64,000 nt of DNA from Erodium maritimum (lineage: Eukaryota > Streptophyta > Magnoliopsida > Geraniales > Geraniaceae). Position numbers and translations under genes: made by a program. Below, one piece after another: positions 1 to 58,822 of this stretch. The notes beneath the pieces are model-generated. The model saw nothing but the letters and a program-made list of their open reading frames with translations, was not told the origin of the DNA and made no database searches. The DNA lies in NCBI GenBank assembly GCA_963921825.1, contig OY997589.1, forward strand, positions 49,486,638 to 49,550,637, written 5' to 3'. How positions within the stretch are numbered: the stretch's first letter is position 1; each line of letters begins with the position of its first letter.

Positions 1-2079
1 TGCTTTTAAGATAATCAGTGTATCATCTGCAAATTGAAGATGAGAAATCATAGGCCCTGAGTTGCCACAAGTTACACCAGCCAATTTTCCTTCTGAGATC
101 CCTTGTTCCAAGATTAAATGTAAACCTTCAGCTGCAATTGCAAATAAAAGAGGGGATAAAGAACAGCCTTGTCTCAGTCCTCTAGAAAGTTTAAAATCCT
201 CTGAGGGAGACCCATTAATCAGGACTGATCCCCATGCCCTGAAGCAAGAAGCCATCCACCCTCTCCACATCTCACCAAATCCCATAATTTTGAGCACATT
301 ATTCAGATATTTCCAGTCCAAGTGGTCATAGGCCTTTTCAAAATCAGCTTTGAATAGAATTACTTCTTCTTTGGAATGTTTAAGTGAATGCAACACCTCT
401 GAGGCTATAAGTATACCATCCAGAATTTGTCTCCCTGCTATGAATCCTGTTTGAACATCACTAACAAGCTGGTCCATCACTGTCTTCAGCCTTGCAGCCA
501 ACACTTTTGAAATGATCTTATACAATGCCCCTACCAGACTAATAGGTCTATAATCATTAAAAGAGGAAGGGTTTGCCACTTTTGGGATGAGGGTAAAAAA
601 GGAAGAGTTGATACCCTTGCCCAGCATGCCTGTGGAGTGGAAATGGTGGAAAAATAATAGGATATCATGTTGCAAAAAATCCCAACCTCTTTGTAAGAAC
701 TTGAGAGTAATCCCATCTGGACCTGTGGCCTTTTCCCCATCACAAACTAAAACTGCAAAGTGTACTTCTTCAATAGTGAAGGGCCTTTCTAAAAAATCAG
801 CCTTGGCTTGTGATATAGAATTGAAAGGGAGGTGAGAGACATCAATAATCACTGAGTTGGTCTTGTGGAACCTGGAACTACAATGTGATGCAGCAGCAGT
901 CTTGATATCTTTAGGTGAAGTATAAATTTGGCCCTCCTCCAGTATTTGAGTAATTCTCTTTTTGGTGGCAGAGAAATTTGCCCATAAATGGTAATATTTT
1001 GTATTTCTTTCCCCTTCCTTGATCCACTTTAATCTTGATTTTTGGCTCCACAATTTTGCCAAGGCTTTGAATTTTTGTACTAACACAGCACTGCACAGAG
1101 ATCTTGAAGCTCTCTCAGCATCAGTAAGGGCCCTAGTTTCCAGTATGCCATCTAAGCCATTTATCTGAGATTGCAACTCCTCAATGGAGGTCTCCACATG
1201 TCCAAAAACCTGAGTATTCCATTTCTTGAGAAAGGTCTTAAGCTTCTTAAATTTTAACCAGATCACCACATGAGGGTCCCCCACCTCCACAAGCTCTCCC
1301 CAAAATTTAGCTACATCCTTTAGAAAAGTGGGATGGTCTAACCATACATTCAGGAATTTAAAGGGTCTTGGGCCCTAATCAATGATAGGATCACTTAGAA
1401 TGACTGGCTTATGATCAGAAATAGCCCTAGCAATACAGTTTTGGGACAAATTATGAAAAGTGTTCATTACTTGGGGTGCAAGCAAGAACCTATCCAGCCT
1501 AGAGGCAACGGAATTTGTCCCAAACCAAGTAAAATTCCCACCCACCAGAGGGATATCTAAGAGTGATGCCTCATTTATGAATCTATTAAAGCTTCTAATA
1601 GAGGATAAAGACTGGGAGTTGCCAGTTTTCTCAGAAACCTGTAATATAGCATTAAAATCACCAGCACAGATGTAGAAAGGTCCTAGCAAGCTGATCTCCT
1701 CAATAAGTGCAGTCCAGAGTGTTTTTCTTTCCCTAGCATTACAAGGAGCATAAACATTTATGATTGATAGAGAAACTTTCCATTCTTCAGAAAAACCTGT
1801 CCAGATCAAAGCATGTTGTATGGGCTTTATACTTTGCATCAGAAAAAAGTCAGTGTTCCAGCAAGTGCAAACCCCCCCAGAGAGGCCTATAGCATCAATA
1901 ACCACCACCTTCCATGCCTCAGAAAGTCCTATAGACCTTTGAAAATAAATAGGTAACTTCTGCAATTTTGTCTCTTGTAGCAATAAAAAACAAGGTTTTT
2001 GCTTCTATATCACACCCTTTAATGCCTTCTGCTTCTGCACAGAAGAGACCCCTCTTAAATTCCAAGAGAGGATCTTCAT
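1..2079 (-). pseudogene. LINE ORF2 (endonuclease plus reverse transcriptase), partial and broken
   Basis: ORF2 begins with ATG at 2,079-2,077, seven bases after the ORF1 stop (TAG, 2,087-2,089). The N-terminus MKILSWNLRG and the motifs LLLQETKL, AGDFNAIL, SRLDRFLL and SDHKPVIL mark an exonuclease-endonuclease-phosphatase domain with its catalytic residues kept. In-frame TAG codons at 2,005-2,007 and 1,375-1,377 interrupt it (the second replaces a Trp that LINE-2 keeps in DWGPRPFKF). Beyond that, reverse transcriptase motifs are readable: KATGPDGI, DYRPISLV, FKADFEKAYD, GLRQGCSLSPLLF and, near the left edge, LQFADDTL. The frame leaves the window there. Confidence 0.87.
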
Positions 2080-2086
2080 TCCTGGC

Positions 2087-4657
2087 CTAATCAGTGTTGA
2101 AAGCTCTAGCTTGAGATTCTATCTCATCCAGACATACATCCTCCTCTTCCTCAAGATCAATGAAGTCATCCCCAGAATCTGTCTCAAAATTTACTCTTTG
2201 GTTGATCTCAGCTTCTAAATTATCAAACTGATCTATGACAAGTTCATCAGCCACAAAAGCCTTTAACCCAATTGCCTTGCAATATTCCCAAGGGCTTTGA
2301 ATCCCTTCACCAGTTGTTGGTGACTCCACTGCCTTCTTCTTCTTCTTCTTATCTGTCAGAGATAGCAAAGGTGTTTCTTTCCCTCTCCTTGATCTTGTAT
2401 CATATACATATGAAACTTGAGGTTGCTTTGATTTCCTCTTTGAGAATTTTGTTTTTGTTTGGGGAGTAAAGTGCTGAGTTTTAGTGATCAAAGTGACTGA
2501 GGTGGCTGCTAAGGACTGTAGAGATTGTATTCCCTCCAAAACTAAAGTGTTCTCATTTCCAAAAATTTCTGGTGGTCCCTGAGGTGAAGTGTAGTCCTCA
2601 ACCCTTACCATCTCATTAATGCCTTCCCCTTTAGGTATATTGATATGAGGTTTATCAGTTCCCAAAACTGAGGCAGTTTCTTGGGCTTCCAACTCATCTG
2701 CAGCTTCAATATCCAATGGACTAAACCTGTTGGATAATAAAAGATGCTTTTCTTCCTCCATCAGCAGATCTTCAAGGTTTTGAGGTTGAGAAAACACAGG
2801 GAGAATATCAGAGGAATGTTTGTTGGTAGCCATTAATGGAGAATCCTCATAAGTATCCTTGACCACACCTGAAGAGATGGAAAATTCTGCTTTGTGGATC
2901 TTTACTGTCCCTGACATTTCTTCAGCATTTAACATCTGTGAATTTGTGATACTCATACCTTCCAAAATAATTTTCTTTAAGCCAAACTCTTCCCCAGCCT
3001 GTTCTTCTGATTTTGTCAAAGAATTGTTGTAATTCAAAACTGATGCTTGACCATTGTCTTGGCTTGCTTCAACCTGTTCCCCTGAAACCTCAATTCTAGG
3101 TAATAAGAAAGTGACCTTCTTGGTATTAGTAGGACTCAAATCCTGTTGAGGAGGGCTGATCTGAGTAGGGTTCAAATCTTGTTGAGGAGGGCTGGTCTGT
3201 GTCTGCAATGGTGTTGAAAATTGACTTGACATGGCTTCTTCATCAATAGAAGTAGAGGAGGACAAATAAGAGGGAGGGGGATCCCATTGAGGAAGTAAAT
3301 TTTTATCAAAAGAGGTAACCAATGTCTTGTACCTGGTCTTCTTCAGAATCACTGATGAATGCTTTGTGAAAACACTCAGCTGAGGAGCATGAATCAAAAC
3401 AAAGGCTTTGTCAAGATGTGTACCTTTGATTGTTTGTGGATGTGTATAAACCAAATCTCCCCAACCTTGTATTGATTTTTCCAGAGATTCCTCACACCAA
3501 CCCAGAAAAGGTATGCCTGTAACTGAGACCCATTGAAACCTCCCACTCCTCACTAACCATTTCTGACTCTTTGGTAGTAATATGACCCAATTATCCAACC
3601 AGTTTGAGTTCTCTTCAATCATCAACTTCTCAAATTCCTCATCTGGGAAAGTAAGGAGTACACACCTTTCCCCCAAATCTCTGACCTCAATGTCACTAAC
3701 TCCCTCAATAGCCATTTCTCTAGCTATTCCTTGTGCACTCAGGTTTCTCCAAGATATTGCCACATGGGAAGTTTTCAACTTCTTCTCAAATGCAGTGACC
3801 ACCGAGCCTAGCTGTGTGTGAGGGTAATCAATCTGTGGGAGTGTCTGTATAGTTGGTGCTAAATATTTGTCCACTCCAGGCTCCTTCTTCTTCCAAAAAT
3901 TCAGAGTCGATGAATCCAAGTACTGTTTTTCTTTCTTTCTCCAAGCTTCAGTGATGAATACTTTAAACCCACAGAGATGCCAGCCATTGAACATGCTGAT
4001 GACTTTCCTTAATCCTTCCTCTTGTTTAAAACGAATGAAAGCAAAGTTTCTTCCTCTTATATTTGGTTTGGTTGGTGCTTCAATTGAGATGATCTGTCCA
4101 GCTTCTTTGAACTGCTCTTCCAGCCACAATGGTGAGGCCTCTGGTGGAATGTTGCTTACAAAAGCCCAAAACTCTTTCTCTCCCGTTTTCACTTCATTCC
4201 AACCTCTGTCTCCATGTTCTATGGATTGAGGTCCAAGCCTCCTTCTCCACTTCTTGCCAAAATCAGTGTTTTCATCTAGAAGCAAGCCTCTGCCATGTTT
4301 GTGACTTTGTTCCGACTTGGTTCCTCCTCCAAAGCCCGGCAGTGGGCCTGTGTCTGATCTAGAGGACGTGGCTTCAAATTGATATAAGTTCTTCTTTGTT
4401 GTAGAGTTAAGTTTTCTGACCGATCCATCTGCTCTTGTTGTGAAGAATTGCTTTTCACTGTCGAACATGTTTGTGCATTTGAAATTTTCCTTGATGTACT
4501 TTCTGTCCTCAGACGAGGTTGGTGTATTCTGCTGCTGTGGGGAAATGTGGATTGGGGTCACCTGTTCCGATGGTGATCGAGGTGTCGGGGGTAAAGTTGT
4601 AGGTCTTGGATCCAAATCCAAAGGAGAAGGCTCTCTCGCCATTGCAAAGCAGAGCAC
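2087..4657 (-). CDS. LINE ORF1 protein with RRM-like and DUF4283-like domains
   Basis: An open frame of 856 residues. Two starts are close together: M1 (MLCFAM) and M6 (MAREPSP); M6 looks the more natural N-terminus, but the choice is not decided by sequence. An RRM-like fold lies at about residues 165-240 (EFWAFVSNIPP as RNP2, NFAFIRFK as RNP1). A DUF4283-like region follows at about 320-450 (DLGERCVLLTFPDEEFE, then GIPFLGWCEE). A low-complexity linker contains a 12-residue duplication around SPPQQDL. Near the C-terminus there is a lysine run and the box EYCKAIGLKAFVADEL followed by a strongly acidic tail. The same box ends the ORF1 of LINE-2. ORF1 proteins of L1 elements bind the element RNA to form the RNP. 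No CCHC knuckle was seen. Confidence 0.88.
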   Translation of the reverse strand: MLCFAMAREPSPLDLDPRPTTLPPTPRSPSEQVTPIHISPQQQNTPTSSEDRKYIKENFKCTNMFDSEKQFFTTRADGSVRKLNSTTKKNLYQFEATSSRSDTGPLPGFGGGTKSEQSHKHGRGLLLDENTDFGKKWRRRLGPQSIEHGDRGWNEVKTGEKEFWAFVSNIPPEASPLWLEEQFKEAGQIISIEAPTKPNIRGRNFAFIRFKQEEGLRKVISMFNGWHLCGFKVFITEAWRKKEKQYLDSSTLNFWKKKEPGVDKYLAPTIQTLPQIDYPHTQLGSVVTAFEKKLKTSHVAISWRNLSAQGIAREMAIEGVSDIEVRDLGERCVLLTFPDEEFEKLMIEENSNWLDNWVILLPKSQKWLVRSGRFQWVSVTGIPFLGWCEESLEKSIQGWGDLVYTHPQTIKGTHLDKAFVLIHAPQLSVFTKHSSVILKKTRYKTLVTSFDKNLLPQWDPPPSYLSSSTSIDEEAMSSQFSTPLQTQTSPPQQDLNPTQISPPQQDLSPTNTKKVTFLLPRIEVSGEQVEASQDNGQASVLNYNNSLTKSEEQAGEEFGLKKIILEGMSITNSQMLNAEEMSGTVKIHKAEFSISSGVVKDTYEDSPLMATNKHSSDILPVFSQPQNLEDLLMEEEKHLLLSNRFSPLDIEAADELEAQETASVLGTDKPHINIPKGEGINEMVRVEDYTSPQGPPEIFGNENTLVLEGIQSLQSLAATSVTLITKTQHFTPQTKTKFSKRKSKQPQVSYVYDTRSRRGKETPLLSLTDKKKKKKAVESPTTGEGIQSPWEYCKAIGLKAFVADELVIDQFDNLEAEINQRVNFETDSGDDFIDLEEEEDVCLDEIESQARAFNTD

Positions 4658-5790: not shown

Positions 5791-5793
5791 CTA

Positions 5794-5874
5794 TTGGTAT
5801 TGAATAGCATCGCCCGTTATTGGTTCAATACATCCCGAGCAGAACGAAACATTTTGAAATGCCAAAACCTCCCG

Positions 5875-5907
<33 letters not shown>

Positions 5908-7567
5908 TTATTGGCCTCCGGCCACCCTTGCTCCTCCCCTTCTTCTCGCCTCTTCGTCTGTAATCTCCCGGTGGATTGCACCTCTGAGACTCTCGCCAGC
6001 CTTTTCAAGGATTTTGGTCCGGTTAACCGTGCTTACCTGCCTTCCTCCCCCACAAGTTCTGGCAAGAAGTTTGGCTTCGTCTTCCTTCGCAATTCCGCCT
6101 TGGCGGCTGCTGCATCTATCTCCCTTTGGGTCTGATCGTCTCATTGTAGACTTCTGCAAGGGACCTCGTCGGGGAACCTCTCGCCCTCTCCAGACTGCCC
6201 CCTCCGGGGCGTTGGCAGCCCCCTCTGTTATACGCTCCTTCAAAGACGTGGTCTGGGGGGGACTACTCCTCCCTCTCCTCTTCAAGGCAGCCCCGACTCC
6301 ACCCTTTCCCTCACCTGCTCGGGCTCTCTTGGCCCCTTTGACACCTCTTTGCTCGGCTCCTCCATCATCGGAGTGTCCCGCGACAACCGGCCGGCCTCTT
6401 CGCTCCAGGCTGATCTCCCTCTCGCTTTGGTCGGAGAGGTGCGCTTGGCTGAACTTGGGGCCAAAACCTTTCTAATCTATTTCTCCTCAGTTGAGACATT
6501 CAAATCCATGGAAGCCAAGAACTGGTCGGAGCTCCGGCACATGTTTTTCGACTTCTTTGCTGATCTGAACTCCGTGGTTGACGACGATCGTTTCAGTTGG
6601 ATCTCCATGGCCGGAATCCCTCTCTCTGGATGGTCGCTTGCCTCAATTCGCAATCTTGCTTCGTCGGCCGGAACCCTGGTTGCTGTTCACCCCTGCTCTG
6701 CCTCCTTCAATCGTCTTGACTTGGCTTTCGCCCTAATTTTCACAAGCAATTGGTCCCCCATCAATTGCTTGGTTGAGCTCGATGTCTATGGCACCAAATC
6801 CCCCGTTCGGATTGTCGGAATCGAACCTCACCTCGTCCCTGACTCCGTTTTGGATTGCGTCGATTTTGAAGATGGAGAATTAGAGTTTGGCGCGGTGCTT
6901 GAGTGGCCAGCGCCCCGCCCTCTCTCCTCGTCTTCCTCTCCTCCCGGCAACCCGAACCTGTCGCCGGAGCTCGGCTCCGTTTCTCTCTTCCCATCGGCTC
7001 AGTCTCAGAACCCCAAGAGTCGCGCCTCCTCGTCTCCTGCACGCACCATCTCGTTTTCCATGTAGCTTTGTCCCGAGGTCAATAATGTCGTAAACCTCTC
7101 CTCTTCTCGAGACAACGTGTGCTTTGCTTTGAGACAGGACCTCCCTCCATCGGGCATGGTCGTTGATAAAGGCTTGCTGGCTTTTACTACGTTTGGCCAG
7201 CAGCTAGGCCCGACTGCTTCCAAGCCCAAGCCTACTGCTACCCTGGACCCCAAGCCCCAGGCCCATCCAGTGCCTCCCCGGCCTGCGACCCCCTCTCCCG
7301 AGCCCTCTGATTTCTCGTCTTTTATCGCCGACATCCGCTCTCCGGCTACTGACCCGGGTTTCAATCCTGCTTCGTCCCAAACATAAATACAAGAGGATTC
7401 GTAACGGTCGTCAGAAGTCCCTTAAGGCTCTCAAGGATGTCAGCCCCTCCAGATCCCGGCGGAAGAAGTCTGAGGCTAAACGTGCTTGGGCCCTCTGTAA
7501 GACGATGGGTTTCATCTCTTCGTGTAATGATAAGGACACTATCAAACTGTTCCAAGATATCGGCTAA
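5794..7567 (+). pseudogene. LINE-type ORF1 of half-LINE A, frameshifted
   Basis: The protein is readable in pieces over several frames. First comes a proline run encoded by a C tract, then an RRM-like domain (RLFVCNLPVDCTSETLASLF, then GKKFGFVFLRN). A frame change near 6,120 follows, then a basic segment (GSDRLIVDFCKGPRRGTS). The DUF4283-like region (DDRFSWISMAGIPLSGWS; TLVAVHPCSASFNRLDLAF) reads at 6,349-7,065 and ends at a stop. A proline-rich stretch follows at 7,117-7,386, and the C-terminus reads in a third frame (about 7,370-7,567) with a basic patch and RAWALCKTMGF. At least three frame breaks or stops make this copy dead. The order of parts matches ORF1 of LINE-1 and LINE-2, but composition is much more GC-rich, so it is a different subfamily. 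Confidence 0.7.
5876..5907 (+). repeat. Uninterrupted C tract, 32 bases
   Basis: A pure run of 32 C near the start of half-LINE A; on this strand it encodes a proline run just before the RRM. Such a long homopolymer is unusual, and its length is sensitive to sequencing or assembly error. Confidence 0.9.
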
Positions 7568-7846
7568 CCTTAGCCCTCTTCTTGCTCTTCTCTTCTCCAG
7601 TCTTTTGCTCTTCATCCTTCGATTGTAATTCTCCTTTGGAGTGTTTTGTTTGGTTGAATAAAAATTCGTTTTTTTTGCTGATAAAAAAAAACCTATGTCT
7701 CCTAATATGACAAAGAAATAAGAAAAATAGATGATAGCCCCTCTTCAAATCCTACTAATCAAAATATATCCCTCTTTAAATCCTACTAATCAAAATCTGT
7801 AATTCTTGTAGGAAAAAAAACATGGTTGATTTCTTACCTATTGTAC

Positions 7847-8098
7847 TGTAACATCCCGCCCTGCCAGACCCGGGCCCCACGCGCGGCGATGTTAGGTCTG
7901 CAGCCCAATACACCCCAACCCTTCTGGTGTACCGTCCACAGACAAATACCAACCTAGGTTGTTGATGAGACTTGAACCCAAGACCTCACCCTTTATAGCA
8001 TTTCCTTGAGTGATGCTATCACCAATTGAGGGTGTACTGGGCTGCAGACCTAACATCGCCGCGCGTGGGGCCCGGGTCTGACACAGCGGGATGTTACA
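7847..8098. mobile_element. 252-bp inverted-repeat (MITE or foldback) element with tRNA-like core
   Basis: Near-perfect terminal inverted repeats of about 65 bases begin TGTAACATCCCGC and end in its complement. They include the shared blocks AGACCCGGGCCCCACGCG and CGATGTTAGGTCTGCAG. The flanks carry TGTAC on both sides (7,842-7,846 and 8,099-8,103), a possible 5-bp target duplication, although GTAC is itself palindromic so the duplication is not fully secure. The core, read on the minus strand, contains CTCAATTGGTGATAGCA, like an A box, and GGTTCAAGTC, like a B box of a tRNA gene, about 35 bases apart. No protein is encoded. The superfamily is not clear from the termini. Confidence 0.7.
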
Positions 8099-8103
8099 TG
8101 TAC

Positions 8104-9432: not shown

Positions 9433-11481
9433 TTGACATTTTTTCTCATGTCGGTTGCTTCTTTTTTTGGGCCTCCTCCTGGGTTTGAAGGGGCATTGGA
9501 ACAACCTCTTACCACCAGATTAAAATCTGTGGTGGTCTCTCCACCACCTTCTGTTGGAGGTGAGAAATCTCAACGAGTCCACAATAAGCCTAGAGATTCT
9601 GAGTGGGAGCAGAGTAGACTGTTTATCCTTAATCTGCCTTCAAATACCTCAAATGATTGGTTACAAAACCTCTTTTTGGAGTGTGGGACTATAGTCAAGG
9701 TTGAGGCACCTTCAAAGCCGAATGGTAATGGAATCTGGTTTGGTTTCGTTACCTTTCATAATTCTGAAGCTTCGGAGAAAGGTATACATATCTTCAATGG
9801 TTATGTCTTGAAAGGTTACAAATTGTTTGTTTCAAAAGCCTGGAGTCTGAGTAAGGGCAAACACAAAAGGCTTGTTAAGGATACTTCGTGGAGGACTGAC
9901 CATCCAGTTCCTAACATAAACAGAGGAACTATTGTGGAAGAGAATAGGTGTCGGTTGGATAGAGGGCATCTAGCCTTGTTGCATAAGAATTTATCAGTTG
10001 AAGCAATCATGGAGGATTTCAAGGCTGGTGACATCCTCATCAAGGATCTTGGCAACAGAGTGGTGTTGATTTACTTTCCTGATGAAGATGTGGAAATACA
10101 GGCCTTAGAAAATGAGGCTGCTTGGCTTCTATTCTGGATGACCATCATTAAGGACAAGGCACATCTGTGCAGACGGGGAGGAAAATTCTCTTGGATTGCT
10201 CTTCATGGTGTTCCTATTCTTGGTTGGTGCTCCCAGACATTTGGGACATTTTCAGCAGATTTGGGGAGTGTAGTTTGTGTTCACCCTTCTTCTCTGTCTG
10301 GAATACATTCTGAGGCTGCCTATGTGCTTGTACATTCTCAAGAATATCTCAGGGTCCACAAAGAGGCTGGATTAATTCTTGAGGAGGAAGAGTTCAACGT
10401 TATGTCTATTTCTGTGGATATTTCAGTGGGACTTGTGGTGTGTCCCAACATTCATTCTCTTTTTGATAATTCCTCTTCTGATTATACTAGATCAGAAAAT
10501 TCAGTGTCTGCTGAAGGGTTTATGGCAACTGAGATTATTCCCTCTGGAGGCATTAATATGTCTACTGCTAATCTAGCTCATCAATCTGTTAGGGAAGTTG
10601 TGGTTGATGTTGATTTGGTGGAAATTAATGAGGGTTCCAATTCTAGAGCATTGAATACCACTCAAAAGTTTGATCTTTTGGCATCAGAAGTAGAGTTCCC
10701 AGTCCTGGAAAATTCTAACAAGGGGAAAATTAAGAACACCATCTCTCAGCCTGATGGGATCCTTCCTTTCACATACAAAGAAGTCTTGATTGCTCCTGAT
10801 ACATTTGGGGAAACTAATTCAGTTAGCTTGGCAACTGTTCAATCTCCTTTGGTCACTGTTTTGAATACTATGGGGTCTAAGGAACAATTAGCAGGGATGG
10901 ATGGGATGGAGTTGGAAGCTCAAGAAGAAAGTACCTCATTGGAAGCTGTTGGCATTAATGAGATTGGTAGTTTGGTCCCCAAAAATCTGACAGTTAGGGT
11001 TAACCCCACAAATTTGGAGGGAATAATTATTTCAAACCCAATTTCTGAAAACACTAATTTTTTACAGTCTACTCCTAAAAGGCTTGGGGTTACTGGTAAA
11101 AATAAGAAAAGCTCTACTAAGGTTGCTTACAATACAAGGTCTAAGGCTAAGATTTCTCTACAGTCTTCCAGTCCTTTTTCTTGCAACAAAGCTACAACTG
11201 GGGACATTGCTGCAACTGGGGACATTGCTAGCTCTGGGGACCTGCACAAATTTAAGCTTGGAGGGGAAGGAAATCTGGAGTATTGTAAGGCCTTGGGTTT
11301 GCAGACATTCATTTCAGATGATTTGGCTATAAAACATTTTGATAATCTGGAACTTGAGCCCAATCAAGCACTTGAACTGGAAGCCAATACTGATGGTGAT
11401 TTTTGTGATCTGGAGGATGTGGAGGAGGGTCTGATTTCACCTTTGATTTCTGCCCCTATACAAAATCTCTCCTCTCCATGA
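9433..11481 (+). CDS. LINE-2 ORF1 protein (RRM and DUF4283-like)
   Basis: An open frame of 682 residues. A second Met five codons in (MSVASFFGPPPGFEG, 9,448) is an equally good start. An RRM-like domain lies at about residues 60-135 (RLFILNLPSNT as RNP2, WFGFVTFHN as RNP1, FVSKAW at its end). A DUF4283-like region lies at about 190-310 (IKDLGNRVVLIYFPDEDVE; GKFSWIALHGVPILGWC; VCVHPSSLSGI). A long low-complexity linker includes a six-residue triplication (ATTGDI, AATGDI, ASSGDL) encoded by an 18-base tandem repeat near 11,190-11,245. The C-terminus has the box EYCKALGLQTFISDDLA followed by an acidic tail. The stop TGA overlaps the ORF2 ATG as ATGA. The expected role is RNA binding in the LINE RNP. 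Confidence 0.9.
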   Translation: MTFFLMSVASFFGPPPGFEGALEQPLTTRLKSVVVSPPPSVGGEKSQRVHNKPRDSEWEQSRLFILNLPSNTSNDWLQNLFLECGTIVKVEAPSKPNGNGIWFGFVTFHNSEASEKGIHIFNGYVLKGYKLFVSKAWSLSKGKHKRLVKDTSWRTDHPVPNINRGTIVEENRCRLDRGHLALLHKNLSVEAIMEDFKAGDILIKDLGNRVVLIYFPDEDVEIQALENEAAWLLFWMTIIKDKAHLCRRGGKFSWIALHGVPILGWCSQTFGTFSADLGSVVCVHPSSLSGIHSEAAYVLVHSQEYLRVHKEAGLILEEEEFNVMSISVDISVGLVVCPNIHSLFDNSSSDYTRSENSVSAEGFMATEIIPSGGINMSTANLAHQSVREVVVDVDLVEINEGSNSRALNTTQKFDLLASEVEFPVLENSNKGKIKNTISQPDGILPFTYKEVLIAPDTFGETNSVSLATVQSPLVTVLNTMGSKEQLAGMDGMELEAQEESTSLEAVGINEIGSLVPKNLTVRVNPTNLEGIIISNPISENTNFLQSTPKRLGVTGKNKKSSTKVAYNTRSKAKISLQSSSPFSCNKATTGDIAATGDIASSGDLHKFKLGGEGNLEYCKALGLQTFISDDLAIKHFDNLELEPNQALELEANTDGDFCDLEDVEEGLISPLISAPIQNLSSP

Positions 11482-14375
11482 GAATACTCTCATGGAACAT
11501 GAGAGGTGCCTCTTCTAGACAAAAGAGGAGGGCACTTAGGAATGTTTGTTGCAAACAACATTTGTCTATGGTTTTAATACAAGAAACAAAATTTGCTGCT
11601 ATACCTGATTTTTTCCTGTCAGCATGTGGTTTCTCCAGATCTTGGGAGGCCCTCTGTTGTCCAGCTGAAGGAAGTGCTGGTGGACTACTTACTTTGTGGA
11701 ATAAGGATCATTTCCAATTACTGTCTTCACTGGTGGATGAGCAGGTGATTTATTGGTTTGGAGTTTATTTGGGCACTAATGTTAACTTGACTGTGGTGAA
11801 TGTCTATGCTTCTTGCTATTTAAATTTGAGGTGCCAACTTTGGAATGAGATCAGATTGAGAAGTAATACTTTTGACAAAGCACTTATTGTGGCTGGGGAC
11901 TTCAATGCTATTTTGGATCCTTTGGAAAGAACTGGTCCTAATGTCTCTTCCTCAAGTACTAGAGAATTTAATCACTTCCTGGCTAGCTTGGGGTTGGTGG
12001 ATCTGCATTTATCAGGTGGCAAATTTACTTGGTTTGGCCCTGGTTCTAGGGCCTCTAGACTTGACAGATTTTTGGTCTCTCCTGATGTTTTGTTAACTTT
12101 CAATGCCCTTACCCAAACTTGTTTGGCTAGATGTCTTTCTGATCATAAGCCAGTTCTATTAAGCAATCCTTGTATTGACTGGGGTCCCAGGCCTTTTAAA
12201 TTCATTAATGCTTGGGTGGAACATCCTTCTTTTCTAAGGGATATCAAGGATTTTTGGGGACAAATTCAGGTTGTTGGTTCCTCCTCCTACAAACTCTGGT
12301 TCAAGTTGAAATCTCTCAAGAATTTTCTAAGAGGCTGGAACATTAATACTTTTGGGCTATTAGATAAGGTCATTGAAGATTTGAAGGCTGAGATCAAGTC
12401 CTTGGATGATTTAATTGATTCCAAACCTCTTGTCTCTTCTGAGATTATTCAAAGATCACTTCTTAATGTTTTGCTCACCAGGAGATTGAAATGGCAAGCT
12501 AAGCTATGGTTCCAAAAGGCTAGACACAAATGGAGCAAAGAGGGTGATAGATGCTCCAAGTTTTTTCATCTGTTGGCTAATTTTAATCAGGCCAGAAAAC
12601 AACTAAATTTGATTGAAGAGGAGGGGGTTTGTTATAGCAGTCCTGCTGAAATCAAAGTTGTAGCTAAGATACACTTTCAAAAGAGATTCTTGAACAACAA
12701 TGAGGCTTTTATTGATCTTTCTTCTCTGCCTTTTAATTCTCTCACCAGTATACAAAGTAAAGATCTGGAGAAGGCATTCTCTGAGGAGGAAGTTTGGAAG
12801 GCCATTCAGTCTTGCAAGGGGGACAAATCTCCTGCCCTGATGTGTTTACCATGAGATTCTATCAAGTTAGTTGGGATTTTATTAAAGCTGATATTATGAG
12901 TTTTATGGCTCACTTCAGTATCAGTGGAGGAGGTTTGTGACATATAGGTTGCTCAGAAGTTCAGCTCCCCTTCAATTATCTTGGGTTCCAGTTGGGGGCA
13001 AATCCCAGGAGGAAAAAGACTTGGGATCCTATCATTGCTAAATTCAAGAGCAAGTTGAGTCTTTGGAAAGCTAGAGCCAAATCCTTTGGTGGAAGGATCA
13101 CTTTAATCAAGTCTTCCCTCAGTTCATTGCCTCTGTACTATATGTCTCTTTTCAAAGCTCCTAAGGGTGTGATTAAAGAAATGGAATGTTGGCAAAGGAG
13201 ATTTTTATGGAATGGTACCATTTCTAAGAAAGTTTTACATAAGGTGAGGTGGAACTTGATCTGTAGGCCTAAGTCTGAGGGGGGTCTAGGCATTAAGAAC
13301 TTACACTTAATGAACTTGGCATTATTGGCTAGATGGTGGTGGATATTTGTTGTGGAGAAAGATTCTTTGTGGAAACAATTAGTGTGTGCTAAATTTTGGT
13401 GGGATTGTGATTCTTGGGATCTCTCAAAACTAATGATCACTGATGGTGTATCTCTATTTAGTCATATTCAATCTTTGTTGGAATATCCAAATTTTGCAGC
13501 CGCATTTGGTGCTGAAGGCCTATTGTGGACTGTGAATTCAGGGGATTGTGTGCTTTTTTGGGAGGATTCTTGGTTGTTGGAGATCCCTCTCAAAGCATTA
13601 TTTCAAAGGCTGTATCATCTCAGTACACAAAAAAAATTCTCTTGTGTCCAATTTCTGAGATTGCTTACTGATTTTCAGAAGAGATCTTAGGGGCTGGGAA
13701 CTGGATTTATTCTCTGTGTTGTGTGACTATCTTAATAATTTCCATCTGCAGAACAATGGTGGGGATTCTGTTACTTGGCTTCTAGACCCTAAAGGATTTT
13801 CAGTACAAAAATTGTATGAGAAACTTGACTCCAGAGTTGATCAAAATTTGGCTTGGCCTGCCTTACTCTGGGCTCCTCTTCTACCACCTAAGATAGCTGC
13901 TTTTTCATGGTTATTGTGTATGCAAGCTATCCCCACTAAATGTTTTCTCTTAGCCAGAGGTTTGTATGCTGATAATGTTTGGTGCCCTTTGTGTCTGGAG
14001 GATCCAGAAGAATTGGATCACCTGTTCTTGTCTTGTCCTTTGGCCAGCTCAGTTTGGGCTCTTTGTTTGGAGTGGTGGGGATTTAAAACTGCTATTCCTG
14101 ATGATATTGTTCACTAGTTTCTTTCTTGGAGATTGTTAGCTCCTTCTTCAGCCAGAAAACATTGGGACATTATTTTTTCAATATGCATCTGGAGGATCTG
14201 GCTTGGTAGAAACTCTGTCATTTTTAGAGGCTCACTAGTTTCTCCTGACTTATTGTTACAACAGATCCAAAATGAGTCCTATCAGATACTTTGGGCTAAT
14301 TTCAAAAGTGGCCAGACCTTCTCCTTTCTGTCTTGGCTGGCAGATCCTTGCTCTTGTTTGAGGAGTGCTTATTGA
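11478..14375 (+). pseudogene. LINE-2 ORF2, endonuclease kept, reverse transcriptase core deleted
   Basis: The frame starts at ATG 11,478, overlapping the ORF1 stop by four bases, and is open to 12,854. The endonuclease domain is complete by eye: MRILSWNMRG, LIQETKF, VAGDFNAIL, GGKFTWFG, SRLDRFLVSP, LSDHKPVLL. A one-base loss near 12,833 shifts the frame in what should be SPGPDGF. About 90 bases further on (near 12,935-12,950) the sequence jumps to the region after the catalytic core (PFNYLGFQLGANPRR). Compared with LINE-3, roughly 250 residues including the FADD box are missing. The remainder (thumb-like region, RNase H-like/zf-RVT region with LPPKIAAFSWLL and CPLCLEDPEELDH) reads at 12,992-13,690, 13,716-14,117 and 14,133-14,375, with a frame change near 13,690 and a TAG at 14,115-14,117. 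Confidence 0.88.
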
Positions 14376-15173
14376 TTTGAGAATTGTTACTTGGCTGACT
14401 TATTTCAGGGTTGGGGAATGGGTGGGATTTGTTTGGGGTGGATGGGTACTGTGGTGAGGTTTAGGGGGTGAGGTTAGGTTGTTGTTAACTGTTTATTGTA
14501 CTAGTTCTGAGGTGTGGGGTTTTTTTCTTGTTTCAGTTCTTAACCTTCTTGGAGTGTGGTTAGAACCCCTTTAGGCTGAGAGTTGATTTTTTCCTACTGA
14601 TCAGATCATTATTGGTTTTTGCTGATTGTTTCAAGATGTTTTTTGGTTCCATTTTGTCTGATGTTAGCTTCATTTTTGGTCTCTTTGGATCTTAGGGATA
14701 TTGGCTGAAGGGTCAAGTTGCTGAGGCAATGTCTGAGGTTTTTAAGGTACTGAGAAGGTTTACATGGTGTTTCCTCAACTTCTCCTTTGGGTTGACAGCT
14801 CCTTCGAAGGCTTTTTGGACAGAGACTTTGTCAATTTGTTCTTGGTTGGAGGGTTTGTTGTTCAGAGTTGTTTTGCTGAGTCTTTGGGGGAATTATGATG
14901 TGTGGGGGGGTATCAGTTTATAACCTTGGCATGTTTGGGTTAGTTGTTGTGCTAATTTATTTCCAGCCGAGTGGTAGCTTGCAGTGCAAGGCAAGTTTGG
15001 TTTGAATTTCCATCTTCATTTTGAATCCACTCGGTTACTTGCAGTGCAAGTCAAGTATAGTTTGAACTTTGTGGGGCTTGGGGTTAAAGGTCACATGTGT
15101 TGTAATAGTTTTTGGCTGGGTCTTTCATTTCGAAAGCTTGGCTTTAATACAAAAAATTGCTGATCAAAAAAAA

Positions 15174-19256: not shown

Positions 19257-19740
19257 TTTTTTTATCAGCAAAATTTATTAAGAGTCCATTATTTGAAATA
19301 AAGAAAAGACCAAGAGTACTACTCTCAAAGGAACCAAATGTTACAAAACCCATCACAACCAAAAAAAACCCTTAAACCCCACTTTTACAAAGGCTACGTG
19401 TCCCTCAAGCATACCCTATAACCCCAAGTGAAACCCATCACCAAGTGTTCCATACAATTGTTCAAACCCCTTACACCTAGATCATCAAAAACATCACTGA
19501 ATCAATCAGCAAGGCTCACACCATTCTGAGATCGAAACACAGGCACCCATCCATGTGAATGCTATACCAAAAATTCCAAACCTATCACTGATGTAGCAAT
19601 TCGGTTGTCCATAAAAGATCCACCATCTCAGCACTGTCAAAAAGCCCAGCCAAGCAAGGACCCTGTAATGTGAAGTTACTGAGTAGTTCTTGACATTTAT
19701 AGGGCTCCCCAATTGTGTAGATGATTAGTTAGTTGTAGCA
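19257..19740 (-). mobile_element. 5'-truncated LINE 3' end
   Basis: A T run followed by ATCAGCAAAATTTATTAA is, on the minus strand, the LINE 3' end signature TTTTGCTGATA plus A seen in the other LINEs of the window. The next 450 or so bases look like LINE 3' UTR, but I cannot fix the 5' limit or a target duplication. It lies in the region upstream of the SDH7-like exons. Confidence 0.5.
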
Positions 19741-54069: not shown

Positions 54070-57000
54070 TTTTTTTTTTGGATCAACGAAAGCATAGATT
54101 AAAACCCTCTTCTGAGGTGGAACAAGGTTACAAAAAAACACCCTTCCAATCTGTCTACAGAATGGGGGAGGAAGTTAAAAACCATTACAATGAAATGAGA
54201 GATCAAAATAGAAGTGCTGAAATGTAAAGGTAAGGTGTGAGCATGATTGGAAATCTTTGAAATTGAGGTTGAGGGTCACAATTAGCCTTTATATGAGAGA
54301 GAACACTTGTGATGAAAGTGAGGGTAAAAAGAGGTGCCATTCAGATATAAGGTGGTGAAGGTCTGCACTTGGAGAGGCTCAATGATGTTGCTGCCAGTAG
54401 AGGAAATGAGTGGAAATATATGTGTAGGGTTTTAGAGGGTAAGGATCAGTATCTGAGGTAGCATGTTGAGGTCAAGATAGCAGCGGGGGAGTTGCTTGGG
54501 TTCCAAGTAATTGCTCTTCTGTATGCCTTTGTTTCTGAAGTAGAAAGTTGAGGTTGAAGTAGCAGTAAAATGCTGCTGCAGAGGAGTTGCTTGGGTTCCA
54601 AGTAATTGCACTTATCCATCCACATGAAGATTCTAAGGTGATGATCATCAACACTTTTTCTGGAGAAGTATAGGACCTGCAACAAGAAGGAAGAGAGGGA
54701 CAAAGAGAAGCACTCAAAACCCTAGAATCTACCCACACACAGAATGAAGAGACAGTAGCCCACACTCCAAAAACAGATAAACCCCAATGACACTCCTACT
54801 TTATAGAGCCTAAAAAACTCACAACCACCACCACCCAATTAAACCCATCCCAACCCCAGCCCCATGAAGAGAAGACAGCTCCAAACCAGTTGAGGAAGAG
54901 CTAATTACTTTCTGGCACAAGATCTTGGATTAGAGACCCATTGTTGCATGGTGAAGTGATAAGTGTTGCTGAAAGATGCCCATTCCCAGCCATAGGACTT
55001 ATTGAGTATTTTGTGGAAGATTGTCTCTGAACTTTCTTCAATTCCATTGAAAATGAGGGTGTTCCTGGCCAACCATAGTTGCCAGATGGTAATCTGAAGA
55101 ATGGATCCCCAAGATCTTTTGAGTTTGGAGGGTACCAAGGTGTACCAAGAGCAGAATTGTTGCTTTACATTAGCTGGACAAATCCAAAGAATTCCCCACC
55201 AGGAGCAAACTAGAGACCAGGTTAACCATGCTTTTTTGCAGTGTAGAAGTATATGTGCACCATCTTCAAAATCCCAAGAACAATGGGGGCAAATTAGCTG
55301 TTGTAGGGTTAGATCCATACCTCTTCCTTCTAGAAAGCATTTGGATGGGATAGCCTCAAGACAAGCCAGCCAGGAGAATGCACAAATTTTAGGAGGGATC
55401 CCAGAGCACCAAACCTTTGAGGTCCAATCCACTGCAGAGTTGCCTTGTTGTGCAAGCAAAGTGTATATCCTGTTAACAGTGAAGCCCTTCTCATTCATTT
55501 TCCAGCATATTTTGTCTTCTGAATTTGTGATAGTTATAGAGGATAGTATTGCTGTGAGAGAGCCCCATTCATGAGCCTCTCTTCCCAAGGGTACCCTTCT
55601 GAGGTTCAGTTCCCAGACACCTGATTCCCAAACTTCTGCAATAGTTTTGTTTTTGGAATTTGCCAATAAATACAATCTGGGAAATAGAATTTTAAAAGTG
55701 ACATCTCCCCACCAATGATCATGCCAAAATTGAATTATGTTCCCTTTCCCCAACACCCAGGTCAATCCTTTATCCCCAAAACAGTCTGCAAATCTTTCAT
55801 CTCTGAGCAAGGATAAAAAATGAGATATAAAGCTTGGCTTGCCAATCTCAGAAAATTTGGAGAGATCCCATTCATTGAAGGTCCACCCCATTTTTGCACA
55901 AATTGCTTGTTTCCACAGAGAGTTTTCTTCCAAGGCAAATCTCCACCACCATTTAGCTAGTAGTGAGATGTTCATTAGGTTAAGGTTCTTGATTCCCAAA
56001 CCCCCAAGTGCTTTGGACTTGCAAACCTGGTTCCATCCTACTTTGCAGAAGACTTTAGAAGGTGCAGCCCCATGCCAAAGGAATCTTCTTTGCCATCTTT
56101 CCATCTCTTTGAGGATTGCTTTTGGAGCTCTGAGCAGTGAGAAATAAAATAGAGGCAATGCACTGAGGGTTGATTTGATCAGAGTGATCCTTCCAACAAA
56201 TGACAACAGTTTTTCTTGCCACAGACCAAGGCTATTTTTGAATTTTTGAACTATTGGTAACCAGGTTATCAATCTCCTGGGATTGGCCCCTAGAGAGAAG
56301 CCAAGATATGGCAGGGGTAGTGATGAACAATTACAATCAAGTATCTCTGCATAGATGGGATGCTCTTCTGCTTGTATGTTGAGAGGGATAAGAGTGGACT
56401 TACTGAAGTTGACACTAAGGCCTGTAGATAATTTGAAAACTGAGAGAGCATTCTTGAGGTTCTGTGCTCCTTCTGTAGAGGCTTTGATAAAAAATAGTGA
56501 GTCATCTGCAAATTGGAGGTGTGAAATGTTGGGGCCAATTGGTCCTAGAGCAATTGCTTGAAACTGATTCTGCAGTAGACCAGATTGCATTATTTGATGT
56601 AGAGTCTCTGCAACTAATGCAAAGAGTAGGGGAGAGAGGGCACAACCTTGTCTTATTCCTCTATGTAAGCTGAAATCAGTGGATGGGGAACCATTTATAA
56701 GTACTGAGACATGTGCTCTGAAGCATGAGATCATCCACAGCATCCATTGAGTGCCAAAACCCATCTTTGTCAACAGTTTCATAATAAACATCCAGTTGAC
56801 TTTATCAAAGGCCTTCTCAAAATCAGATTTGAAGATGAGGGCTGGTATCTTTGTTTGTTTGATTTTGAGAACCACTTCATTGGCTACTAGAATCCCATCA
56901 AGAATTTGCCTCCCAGCAATGAAACCAGTCTGTTCAAAGCCCACAAGATCACTAACTACTCCTTTAAGCCTTGTAGCCAATAGTTTAGATAAAATTTTGT

Positions 57001-57134
57001 AGGGTCCTCCCATAAGGCTTATGGGTCTGTAATCATCAAAGGATAAGGGATTGTCACATTTAGGTATGAGGGTTAGAAAAGATGAGTTCAAACCCTTTCC
57101 CAAATGCCCTGACATGTGAAAGTAGTGCATGAAG
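54070..57134 (-). mobile_element. LINE-3: L1-type LINE interrupted by a copia element
   Basis: Minus-strand LINE with poly(A) at 54,070-54,079 (3' end CGTTGATCC plus A). It has a 3' UTR of about 825 bases containing a roughly 100-bp tandem duplication around GAGTTGCTTGGGTTCCAAGT (54,453-54,616), and an ORF2 open up to the copia junction at 57,134. The upstream part (endonuclease, ORF1) must lie beyond the copia element, off the window. Confidence 0.88.
54905..57134 (-). CDS. LINE-3 ORF2 reverse transcriptase, open but missing its N-terminus
   Basis: About 742 residues without a stop. Reverse transcriptase motifs occur in order: LIPKCDNPLSFDDYRPISLM, FKSDFEKAFDKVNW, GIRQGCALSPLLF and LQFADDSLFF (catalytic pair intact), then SLPLPYLGFSLGANPRR and MERWQRRFLWHG. 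The C-terminal part has the zf-RVT region (IPPKICAFSWLACLEAI; CPHC; AHILLHC) and ends SNPRSCARK. It is the best preserved reverse transcriptase in the window. The endonuclease half is separated by the copia insertion. The open frame continues about 41 codons into the copia LTR. Confidence 0.9.
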
Positions 57135-58822
57135 TGTTGGGTCTCGAGGTAAGGTTGGAGATGAACCAACTCGCAGCGGAAAATCAATGAAAACCAAGAG
57201 ACAATTAGAACCATGAAACAACTAACAAAGAATGGATTAACAAGAGAAAAATTCAGCACTAGTTCTTACCAAAACAAGAACACCGGTTAACGAATGATTG
57301 GCTTGAGTCTCCAAGACGCCTACGTATCCACATGGGAATCAAAGCCACGTAGTTCTTCTCTTTGAGGACTCAAGAACACAAAAATGGAGGAGGAAACTAG
57401 CCAAACCCGAAATGGCCATGGAAGAGGGAGAGAAAATGTGTTTCCTATTCTTGTCTTGTCTTTGTTATGTTGAAAAAAGATGACTTAAACATAACAAAAC
57501 CCATACTTGTCCAACTAAAGGCATGGGACAAGTATGGTGTCAAGTAAGGTGTAAATAGGACAAAGTATGGCAAGACAAGATTGTGTTAGGTGGTGAATCA
57601 CCAACACCTTAATCCTTGTCTTGCTTACTTAGTACTAATTAATCAAGACTTGATTAATTAGTTCCATGGGCCTTGGTTGCATGGGCCTTTCATGGGCCTC
57701 TTGGAACATGGCCCGTGACCATTTCCAACGAGGTCCCGTGATTCGCTCATCGCCTCCATGCCTTCCATACCGGAAATGTCCAACATTATCCGACGCGATC
57801 AATCCCAAGACTCCAAGCCTTATCTCGATCCGTAAAGTCCTATTCACTTACGGGCACATGACCCAAAACCCAGTTTTGGTCATGTCCCGAGACAACTCCC
57901 TTTTGGCCATTCTCCATAAATGTGTCAATGAGTTTCATCCTCCGGTGTGACCCTTAGGTTTATGCATGTCAATAGATCAACGTAAAATCCCATTTTACTT
58001 GATCCTATTTAAGTGGCAACTAACGAGACTTTAGTATTGCCTGACACTACATAACGAATCGACCCTGTCGATTCTAACCTTTCCGTCGTCCCTGTCATTA
58101 TCCTTTTATCTCCGATATCCTGATTGAGATAAGGCATAGAGCCGTCATCCTTATTATTCTCAATCACCGTTCCTTGATATGTGAGATGACTGAAGATATG
58201 ATACCCAGTATCATGTGCATGGCCATGCTATTCTTCCAGTCACTCTCGATCAAGCGGCCGAGAACCGATATCTTTCCCATACCTCAGTATGAGGGATAAA
58301 TCCCTTAGCCGCCTTTCGTGTCACTCATGTAGCCCGTCCCCAAGCCAATCCTGGCCGTTATGGAAGCCCTGTTACGGACAACGTTAGGCTCAGGTCAAAC
58401 TCAGTTGTTGACTACATAGCGATCACAAAGACTCCTTGGTCTAAGGATACATGACAAGCTACGACACTGAATATGTTCATGACTTAATCTATGGCACATA
58501 TTCAGGGCGGGTCGTCCAATATCATGTCCCACATGATATCTATGATCAGACTCCGAAATCCCATTCCAATGACTAACAGAACGTAAGCCATAAAGAGCCA
58601 TCTTTCATACTAGTCGCTTCTAGTGAAGCTTTGTTGACTAGGGACCCATCGAGTGTGATCTATCTCGATCTATGGTTCTATTCGCATGGTGGGCATAGAT
58701 CAGAGCACACATCGATATATTACTCCAACACATAAGTAATATAAAGCCGCTTTAATTTTATTGCTAACGATGATATATACATTTGGACATTTAGGATTGA
58801 ACTACGGGCACTAAGACTAACA
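57135..58822 (-). repeat. Copia 3' LTR
   Basis: 1,688 bases, TGTTGGGTCTCGAGG to ACTAACA in plus-strand reading, followed by ATCTCCCACTTGCCC, whose minus strand is the polypurine tract (GGGCAAGTGGGAGAT). Confidence 0.92.

Follow-up and report, generated by a model that had tools for sequence, protein, structure and literature searches.

Locus and question

The window analysed here, a stretch of 64,000 nucleotides from Erodium maritimum (contig OY997589.1), contains a unit that was read from its sequence as an ORF1-only LINE at positions 5791-7691: the parts of a LINE ORF1 run straight into a short 3' untranslated region (UTR) and poly(A). We asked whether this unit is one LINE copy that has lost ORF2 or a member of a lineage that lacks ORF2, and how such a lineage would be copied. 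We consider it very probable that the copy belongs to a non-LTR retrotransposon lineage whose sole product is a LINE-type ORF1 protein (RRM, DUF4283, basic CK..G C-terminus) and which would depend on a helper.

Structure of the copy in the window

We confirmed that, in this plant genome of 763 Mb, positions 5859-7691 of the window hold the decayed remains of a non-LTR retrotransposon with ORF1 only. Its features are given below, with reference to P0001, the 581-aa product of the uninterrupted copy L028:3204-4946.

5791-5858, plus strand: stretch without homology to the other fetched copies, leader or flank, with no supported target duplication
5859-7567, plus strand: decayed ORF1 of a dead copy, ATG at 5859, TAA at 7565-7567, frame interrupted
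5876-5907, plus strand: 32 consecutive C in the opening proline codons of ORF1
5950-6155, plus strand: approximate RRM-coding region, placed by alignment with P0001 residues 28-95
6427-6726, plus strand: region matched by Pfam DUF4283 (6.7e-8), covering residues 27-126 in the ORF at 6349-7065
7385-7567, plus strand: approximate basic segment and CK..G box, read from the sequences
7568-7674, plus strand: 3' UTR of about 107 nt, with a weak hairpin CTCC-ttt-GGAG at 7631-7641 and AATAAA at 7657
7675-7691, plus strand: tail motif TTGCTGATA at 7675-7683, then A to 7691, resembling LINE 3' ends of the genome

The proposed order of LINE ORF1 parts was borne out. Pfam recognised DUF4283 in the longest open piece of the window copy (6349-7065) and both RRM_1 (2.6e-13) and DUF4283 (7e-7) in P0001, whose C-terminus carries a basic segment and a CK..G box as in LINE ORF1s. 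The start at 5791 proved too early, as homology to other copies begins at about 5857-5859, at the ATG. The AATAAA lies about 25 nt 5' of the poly(A). In-frame stops and the run of 32 C mark the window copy as dead; in L009, L010 and L024 this run is shorter, with T interspersed. No target duplication of the window copy beat shuffled sequences (score 8 versus a null maximum of 10). The coding region is GC-rich compared with LINEs, as had been noticed from the sequence (GC: window copy = 0.566; five relatives = 0.535-0.548; six LINE ORFs = 0.40-0.44).

A junction shared by many copies

A DNA search of the genome gave at least 47 matches (40 of 499 candidates scored), from which 20 loci were fetched. 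Alignment across the stop showed that in 19 of these 20 first-family loci ORF1 is followed by one and the same short 3' UTR with poly(A), the recurrence that the original prediction had named as the mark of a family. The exception, L012, seems to hold only the 5' half of a copy, with the 3' half in L022; other DNA splits the copies L011, L013, L014 and L021. Three loci were excluded from the counts: L012, which has no 3' end, L053, which has no tail, and L032, which was fetched and left unused. An ORF2 between the ORF1 stop and the 3' UTR, which had been named as the observation that would count against a family, was seen in 0 of the 19 first-family loci and in 0 of 32 more distant relatives. 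Endonuclease and reverse transcriptase matches in the 20 first-family loci all fell outside the aligned copies, one of them adjoining a copy (L020). The junction is common to many loci, which rules out a single deleted LINE copy.

At L020:4782-5948, the end of a LINE endonuclease fragment in sense orientation is exactly the start of a 5'-truncated ORF1-only copy, and a LINE in antisense orientation follows the copy; either the copy may have inserted into LINE debris or template switching may have produced a chimera.

A wider clade of ORF1-only relatives

Of 9077 candidates in a search with P0001, 75 were scored, giving at least 93 matches with identities of 37-100%; at least 12 of these, the query included, span at least 540 residues free of stops in a table read by eye. 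Both L028 and L029 carry uninterrupted ORFs (581 and 582 codons) and are 94% identical in DNA. We read 32 distant relatives with 37-83% amino-acid identity to the query; 28 carry the tail by pattern, and none has a sense-strand ORF2 behind ORF1. Among the first 20 of them, the tail was found by pattern in 17; a related tail was recognised visually in L051, and in L034 and L038 other DNA interrupts the element. Sense ORF2 was absent from all 20, the matches in L038, L042 and L050 being antisense and those in L038 falling outside the reverse transcriptase domain of the query. Two distant members then served as further queries, and 12 of the resulting relatives were read: the tail is present in 11, a foreign sequence also found in L034 interrupts L085, and none has a sense ORF2, with two weak antisense matches only (L076 and L086). 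This foreign sequence, starting TGTTAGTCTTAGTGCCC, interrupts both L034 and L085 near the end of ORF1, and may be an LTR of a single element whose insertion sites are alike.

As a control, an endonuclease start was found behind all seven LINE ORF1s chosen for having ORF2 (two in the window and five elsewhere, two being the queries' own loci; the five show 13-28 residues only). Set against these positive controls, the absence of ORF2 from all first-family and distant loci read upholds the earlier observation that the unit contains neither endonuclease nor reverse transcriptase. In a tree of ORF1 proteins, 12 from ORF1-only elements (the window subfamily represented via L028 and L029) split with 100/100 support from 7 of ORF2-bearing LINEs, 4 of which are fragments. 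Identity in this set was 0.34-0.90 within the ORF1-only group and 0.17-0.25 across to the ORF2-bearing LINEs. These comparisons support an ORF1-only state that appears to characterise a varied clade, wider than the one family first proposed.

The best-surviving alternative is that autonomous LINEs of the same ORF1 type exist, or existed until recently, and that several subfamilies lost ORF2 independently, as in mammalian HAL1. PMC5753468 describes HAL1 elements as encoding only the ORF1 protein and as having arisen several times, and with 75 of 9077 candidates scored and 32 relatives read, an autonomous relative bearing ORF2 may have been overlooked. We nevertheless regard independent deletion as unlikely, given both the uniform absence of ORF2 from varied relatives and first-family loci and the distance of the seven ORF1s sampled from ORF2-bearing LINEs, which are 17-25% identical to the ORF1-only proteins.

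Selection on ORF1

A lineage that encodes only ORF1 can be examined for selection on that protein, and a dN/dS comparison across copies had been suggested for this element. We projected copies, 13 at first and 15 later, onto the reading frame of L028 (L013 joined from two halves) and grouped them under our own subfamily labels A-E. Between L028 and 12 other copies, dN/dS was 0.23-0.34 at a dS of 1.0-1.4, which indicates selection on ORF1 in elements that lack ORF2. When subfamily E was paired with other copies, bootstrapping put the upper limit at 0.31-0.42 in the six pairs examined. Mean dN between subfamilies was lowest in the basic/CK part (0.109; 8 pairs), followed by RRM (0.259), DUF4283 (0.289) and the Pro/Ser-rich part (0.583).

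The median dN/dS was 0.55 within subfamilies (19 pairs) and 0.32 between them (85 pairs), with one pair of fewer than 250 codons dropped from these medians. Inside subfamily C the 10 pairs gave 0.50-1.09 (pairs with L011: 0.50-0.57; the other six: 0.59-1.09), as expected for dead copies. Since values below 1 were also found inside subfamilies A (0.47-0.80), B (0.29-0.46) and E (0.38-0.60), it is subfamily C that carries the contrast within versus between subfamilies. A weaker case is that of the two intact copies, L028 against L029 (0.60; 0.40-0.93). Not all of the labels A-E denote clades, since the long branches of D and E attach among the C copies in an unrooted DNA tree. On these ratios, the ORF1 protein appears to have been retained as the lineage diverged into groups, all of them without ORF2 as far as read.

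Marks of insertion

We tested target duplications by comparing the 5' side with the 3' flank (23 loci with 30 shuffles each, 12 distant loci with 50). Duplications scored above every shuffle in 20 of the 35 loci: 12 of the 23 (L010, L013, L016, L018, L019, L021, L023, L024, L025, L028, L029 and L030) and 8 of the 12 distant relatives (L055-L059, L061, L062 and L065). These duplications differ from locus to locus. None was found by this measure in the other 15 loci, the window copy included, with L054 and L063 tying with their best shuffle. The expectation that each copy has its own target duplication was borne out in 20 of the 35 loci. With boundaries set by hand, the cut reads T|AA in 6 of 17 listed junctions (L010, L013, L018, L019, L025 and L061), as for L1-type endonucleases. 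The copy L025 is 5'-truncated, and an uninterrupted ORF is combined with a target duplication in several subfamilies (L028, L029, L055, L057, L059, L061 and L062).

This last combination bears on a second alternative, that the copies are processed pseudogenes of a normal gene from a retroposed host family of domesticated ORF1 genes. Such a family could have an AATAAA before the tail, ORFs under selection and a 5' UTR that is not conserved, all of which we observed; uninterrupted ORFs flanked by target duplications in several subfamilies, together with LINE-like tails and LINE ORF1 architecture, make it very improbable. We give almost no credence to the idea that no functional family exists and that chance recombination or template switching linked pieces of ORF1 to LINE tails, as the dead window copy and the position of L020 and others in LINE debris are outweighed by the same junction at many unlinked places, by uninterrupted ORFs and by selection between subfamilies.

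The leader before the ATG

We saw no conserved 5' UTR across the related copies compared, and leaders were unrelated even between 93%-identical copies. In eight pairs whose first 300 nt of ORF1 are 82-94% identical, the 12 nt 5' of the ATG agreed no better than shuffles (shuffles matching the agreement: at least 254 of 500 in seven pairs; 51 of 500 in L057/L059). Where a target duplication is known the leader lies inside it, and so was inserted together with the element. With no 5' UTR in common, it is a question how an ORF1-only element is transcribed. Leaders might derive either from transcription that started in the flank of a parent copy or from a jump of the reverse transcriptase, at the end, to another RNA.

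One uninterrupted copy, L029 (G000 C7:7.2475M), has a leader at 3014-3076 most of which belongs to a different dispersed sequence. A 49-nt stretch of it matches two other places (96 and 94%) and begins just behind the nearer of two candidate target duplications. The 421-441 nt read at these two places contain nothing that matches P0001, and one place has an 18-nt match to L061. This single case is insufficient to choose between a start in the flank and a template jump.

The 3' end and possible helpers

The original prediction saw in the window copy the 3' end signature of LINEs in the same window. Similar tails are indeed present at 15157 (+) and 51987 (-), and a tail of the same kind at 19271 (-); the motif alone is statistically weak, with 3 window matches versus 1.4 expected at up to 2 mismatches, and 17 of 100 shuffles reaching as many. 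The last of these belongs to a 3' end at 19260-19420 (-) with a TTGCTGATAAAA tail, of which only the tail was recognised.

Elsewhere in the genome, stop-free open reverse transcriptase frames of at least 1200 aa were found at 5 of 57 scored places (of 40837 candidates). The 3' ends of these five open-frame LINEs were chosen without regard to the motif, and four (L069, L071, L073 and L075; not L067) have TC(C/G)(C/T)TGAT(A/C) before the poly(A). Tails of the form TGAT(A/C)A were also observed at several LINE ends across the genome. A search with the 3' UTR (40 of 393 candidates scored) returned no helper LINE that shares the whole of it. Upstream of 12 matches to the 3' UTR we read 320 nt; nine have an ORF1-only C-terminus (L088 weakly), three have no match, and an ORF2 was seen in none. 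LINEs and ORF1-only elements share only the terminal motif, whose pattern ends in an A run, and a loose hairpin form.

We dropped the 3' hairpin as strong evidence, its mean score being 6.3 versus 5.1 in shuffles (40 tails). In seven other LINE-like tails the mean score was 9.3 versus 6.0 in shuffles. The stems vary by subfamily (CTCC/GGAG, CTCTC/GAGAG and ATCTC/GAGAT).

Proposed cycle

On our reading, a transcript would start upstream of the ORF1 ATG and end at a TTGCTGAT(A/C) plus poly(A) tail. It would be translated into the ORF1 protein, which, from LINE biology and the selection described above, may coat in cis the RNA that encodes it. Resident LINEs with similar 3' ends would then supply the ORF2 protein, which would carry out target-primed reverse transcription into new sites and probably recognise the poly(A) and the terminal motif, perhaps aided by a small hairpin. 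What we observed is an ORF1-only structure in many subfamilies, poly(A), target duplications, 5' truncation, open ORFs, purifying selection between subfamilies and ORF2 frames of full length at other places in the genome; mobilisation by the ORF2 protein of other LINEs is inferred. We put forward more tentatively, as a possibility somewhat short of even, that the elements form an ancient, self-sustaining ORF1-only clade, obligately dependent on LINE ORF2 for most of its history, which has its own selected RNA-binding protein and no 5' UTR of its own, a leader being captured in each round of copying from flanking DNA or another RNA.

Whether the ORF1 protein is needed in cis while the ORF2 protein is able to act in trans is a standing question for LINEs. 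A lineage that has ORF1 and lacks ORF2 across many subfamilies would be a natural test of it outside mammals, and uninterrupted copies and possible helpers occur here in one genome. Our findings also suggest that some annotated plant DUF4283/RRM proteins stem from mobile elements without an adjacent reverse transcriptase.

Comparison with known systems

In guinea pig HAL1, the long-kept coding capacity was read in PMC3627910 as ORF1 being needed in cis and ORF2 in trans. As far as these sources describe HAL1, the plant elements are alike in encoding ORF1 without ORF2 and in a coding capacity kept by selection. They are unlike HAL1 in that their ORF1 is of the RRM/DUF4283 type, with members down to 34% identity, and in that no close ORF2-bearing relative was present in the sample and no conserved 5' UTR was seen. 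The suggestion of a plant counterpart of HAL1 is thus retained for the ORF1-only structure and the selected ORF1 and is set aside for membership: with an RRM_1 plus DUF4283 ORF1 near those of plant LINEs, and a plant host, the lineage would work like HAL1 and appears not to be a HAL1 member.

BNR of Beta vulgaris, reportedly described by Heitkam and Schmidt in 2009, is said to be a plant L1-clade LINE with an RRM in ORF1. The ORF1-only elements resemble plant L1-clade LINEs in their RRM plus DUF4283 ORF1, CK..G box, TGAT(A/C) poly(A) tail and target duplications, and differ in lacking ORF2 (endonuclease and reverse transcriptase), in their GC-rich coding and in the low ORF1 identity given above. 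Their ORF1 stops soon after the CK box, whereas the two LINE ORF1s of the window continue with a tail beyond it.

The plant SINE/LINE pairs of maize, ZmSINE2/3 with LINE1-1_ZM, share 3' ends (Ohshima 2013, PMC3747384). As this source presents them, such SINEs are likewise non-autonomous with a LINE-type 3' end, whereas the ORF1-only element encodes a protein and shares only a short terminal motif. A SINE was rejected as a candidate, a search limited to the tRNA head having found none. The EKA effector genes of powdery mildew reportedly derive from a LINE ORF1 (PMC4641428); they would likewise be amplified coding units from a LINE ORF1, and they are fungal. Among titles and the beginnings of abstracts of open-licence papers we found no plant ORF1-only LINE, which is not proof of absence in print.

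Neighbouring sequences

Other LINE units with an RRM/DUF4283 ORF1, endonuclease or reverse transcriptase lie in the window at 1375-4657 (-), 9433-15171 (+) and 54905-57259 (-). Directly behind the ORF1-only copy, at 7847-8100, visual inspection suggests a foldback element whose long ends are inverted (TGTAACATCCCGC ... GCGGGATGTTACA). At G000 C1:14869708-14881987, 13 matches to positions 123-531 of the query follow one another exactly 988 bp apart and form a tandem array. The 988-bp unit contains a piece of the ORF1-only element, and L014 holds two such units.
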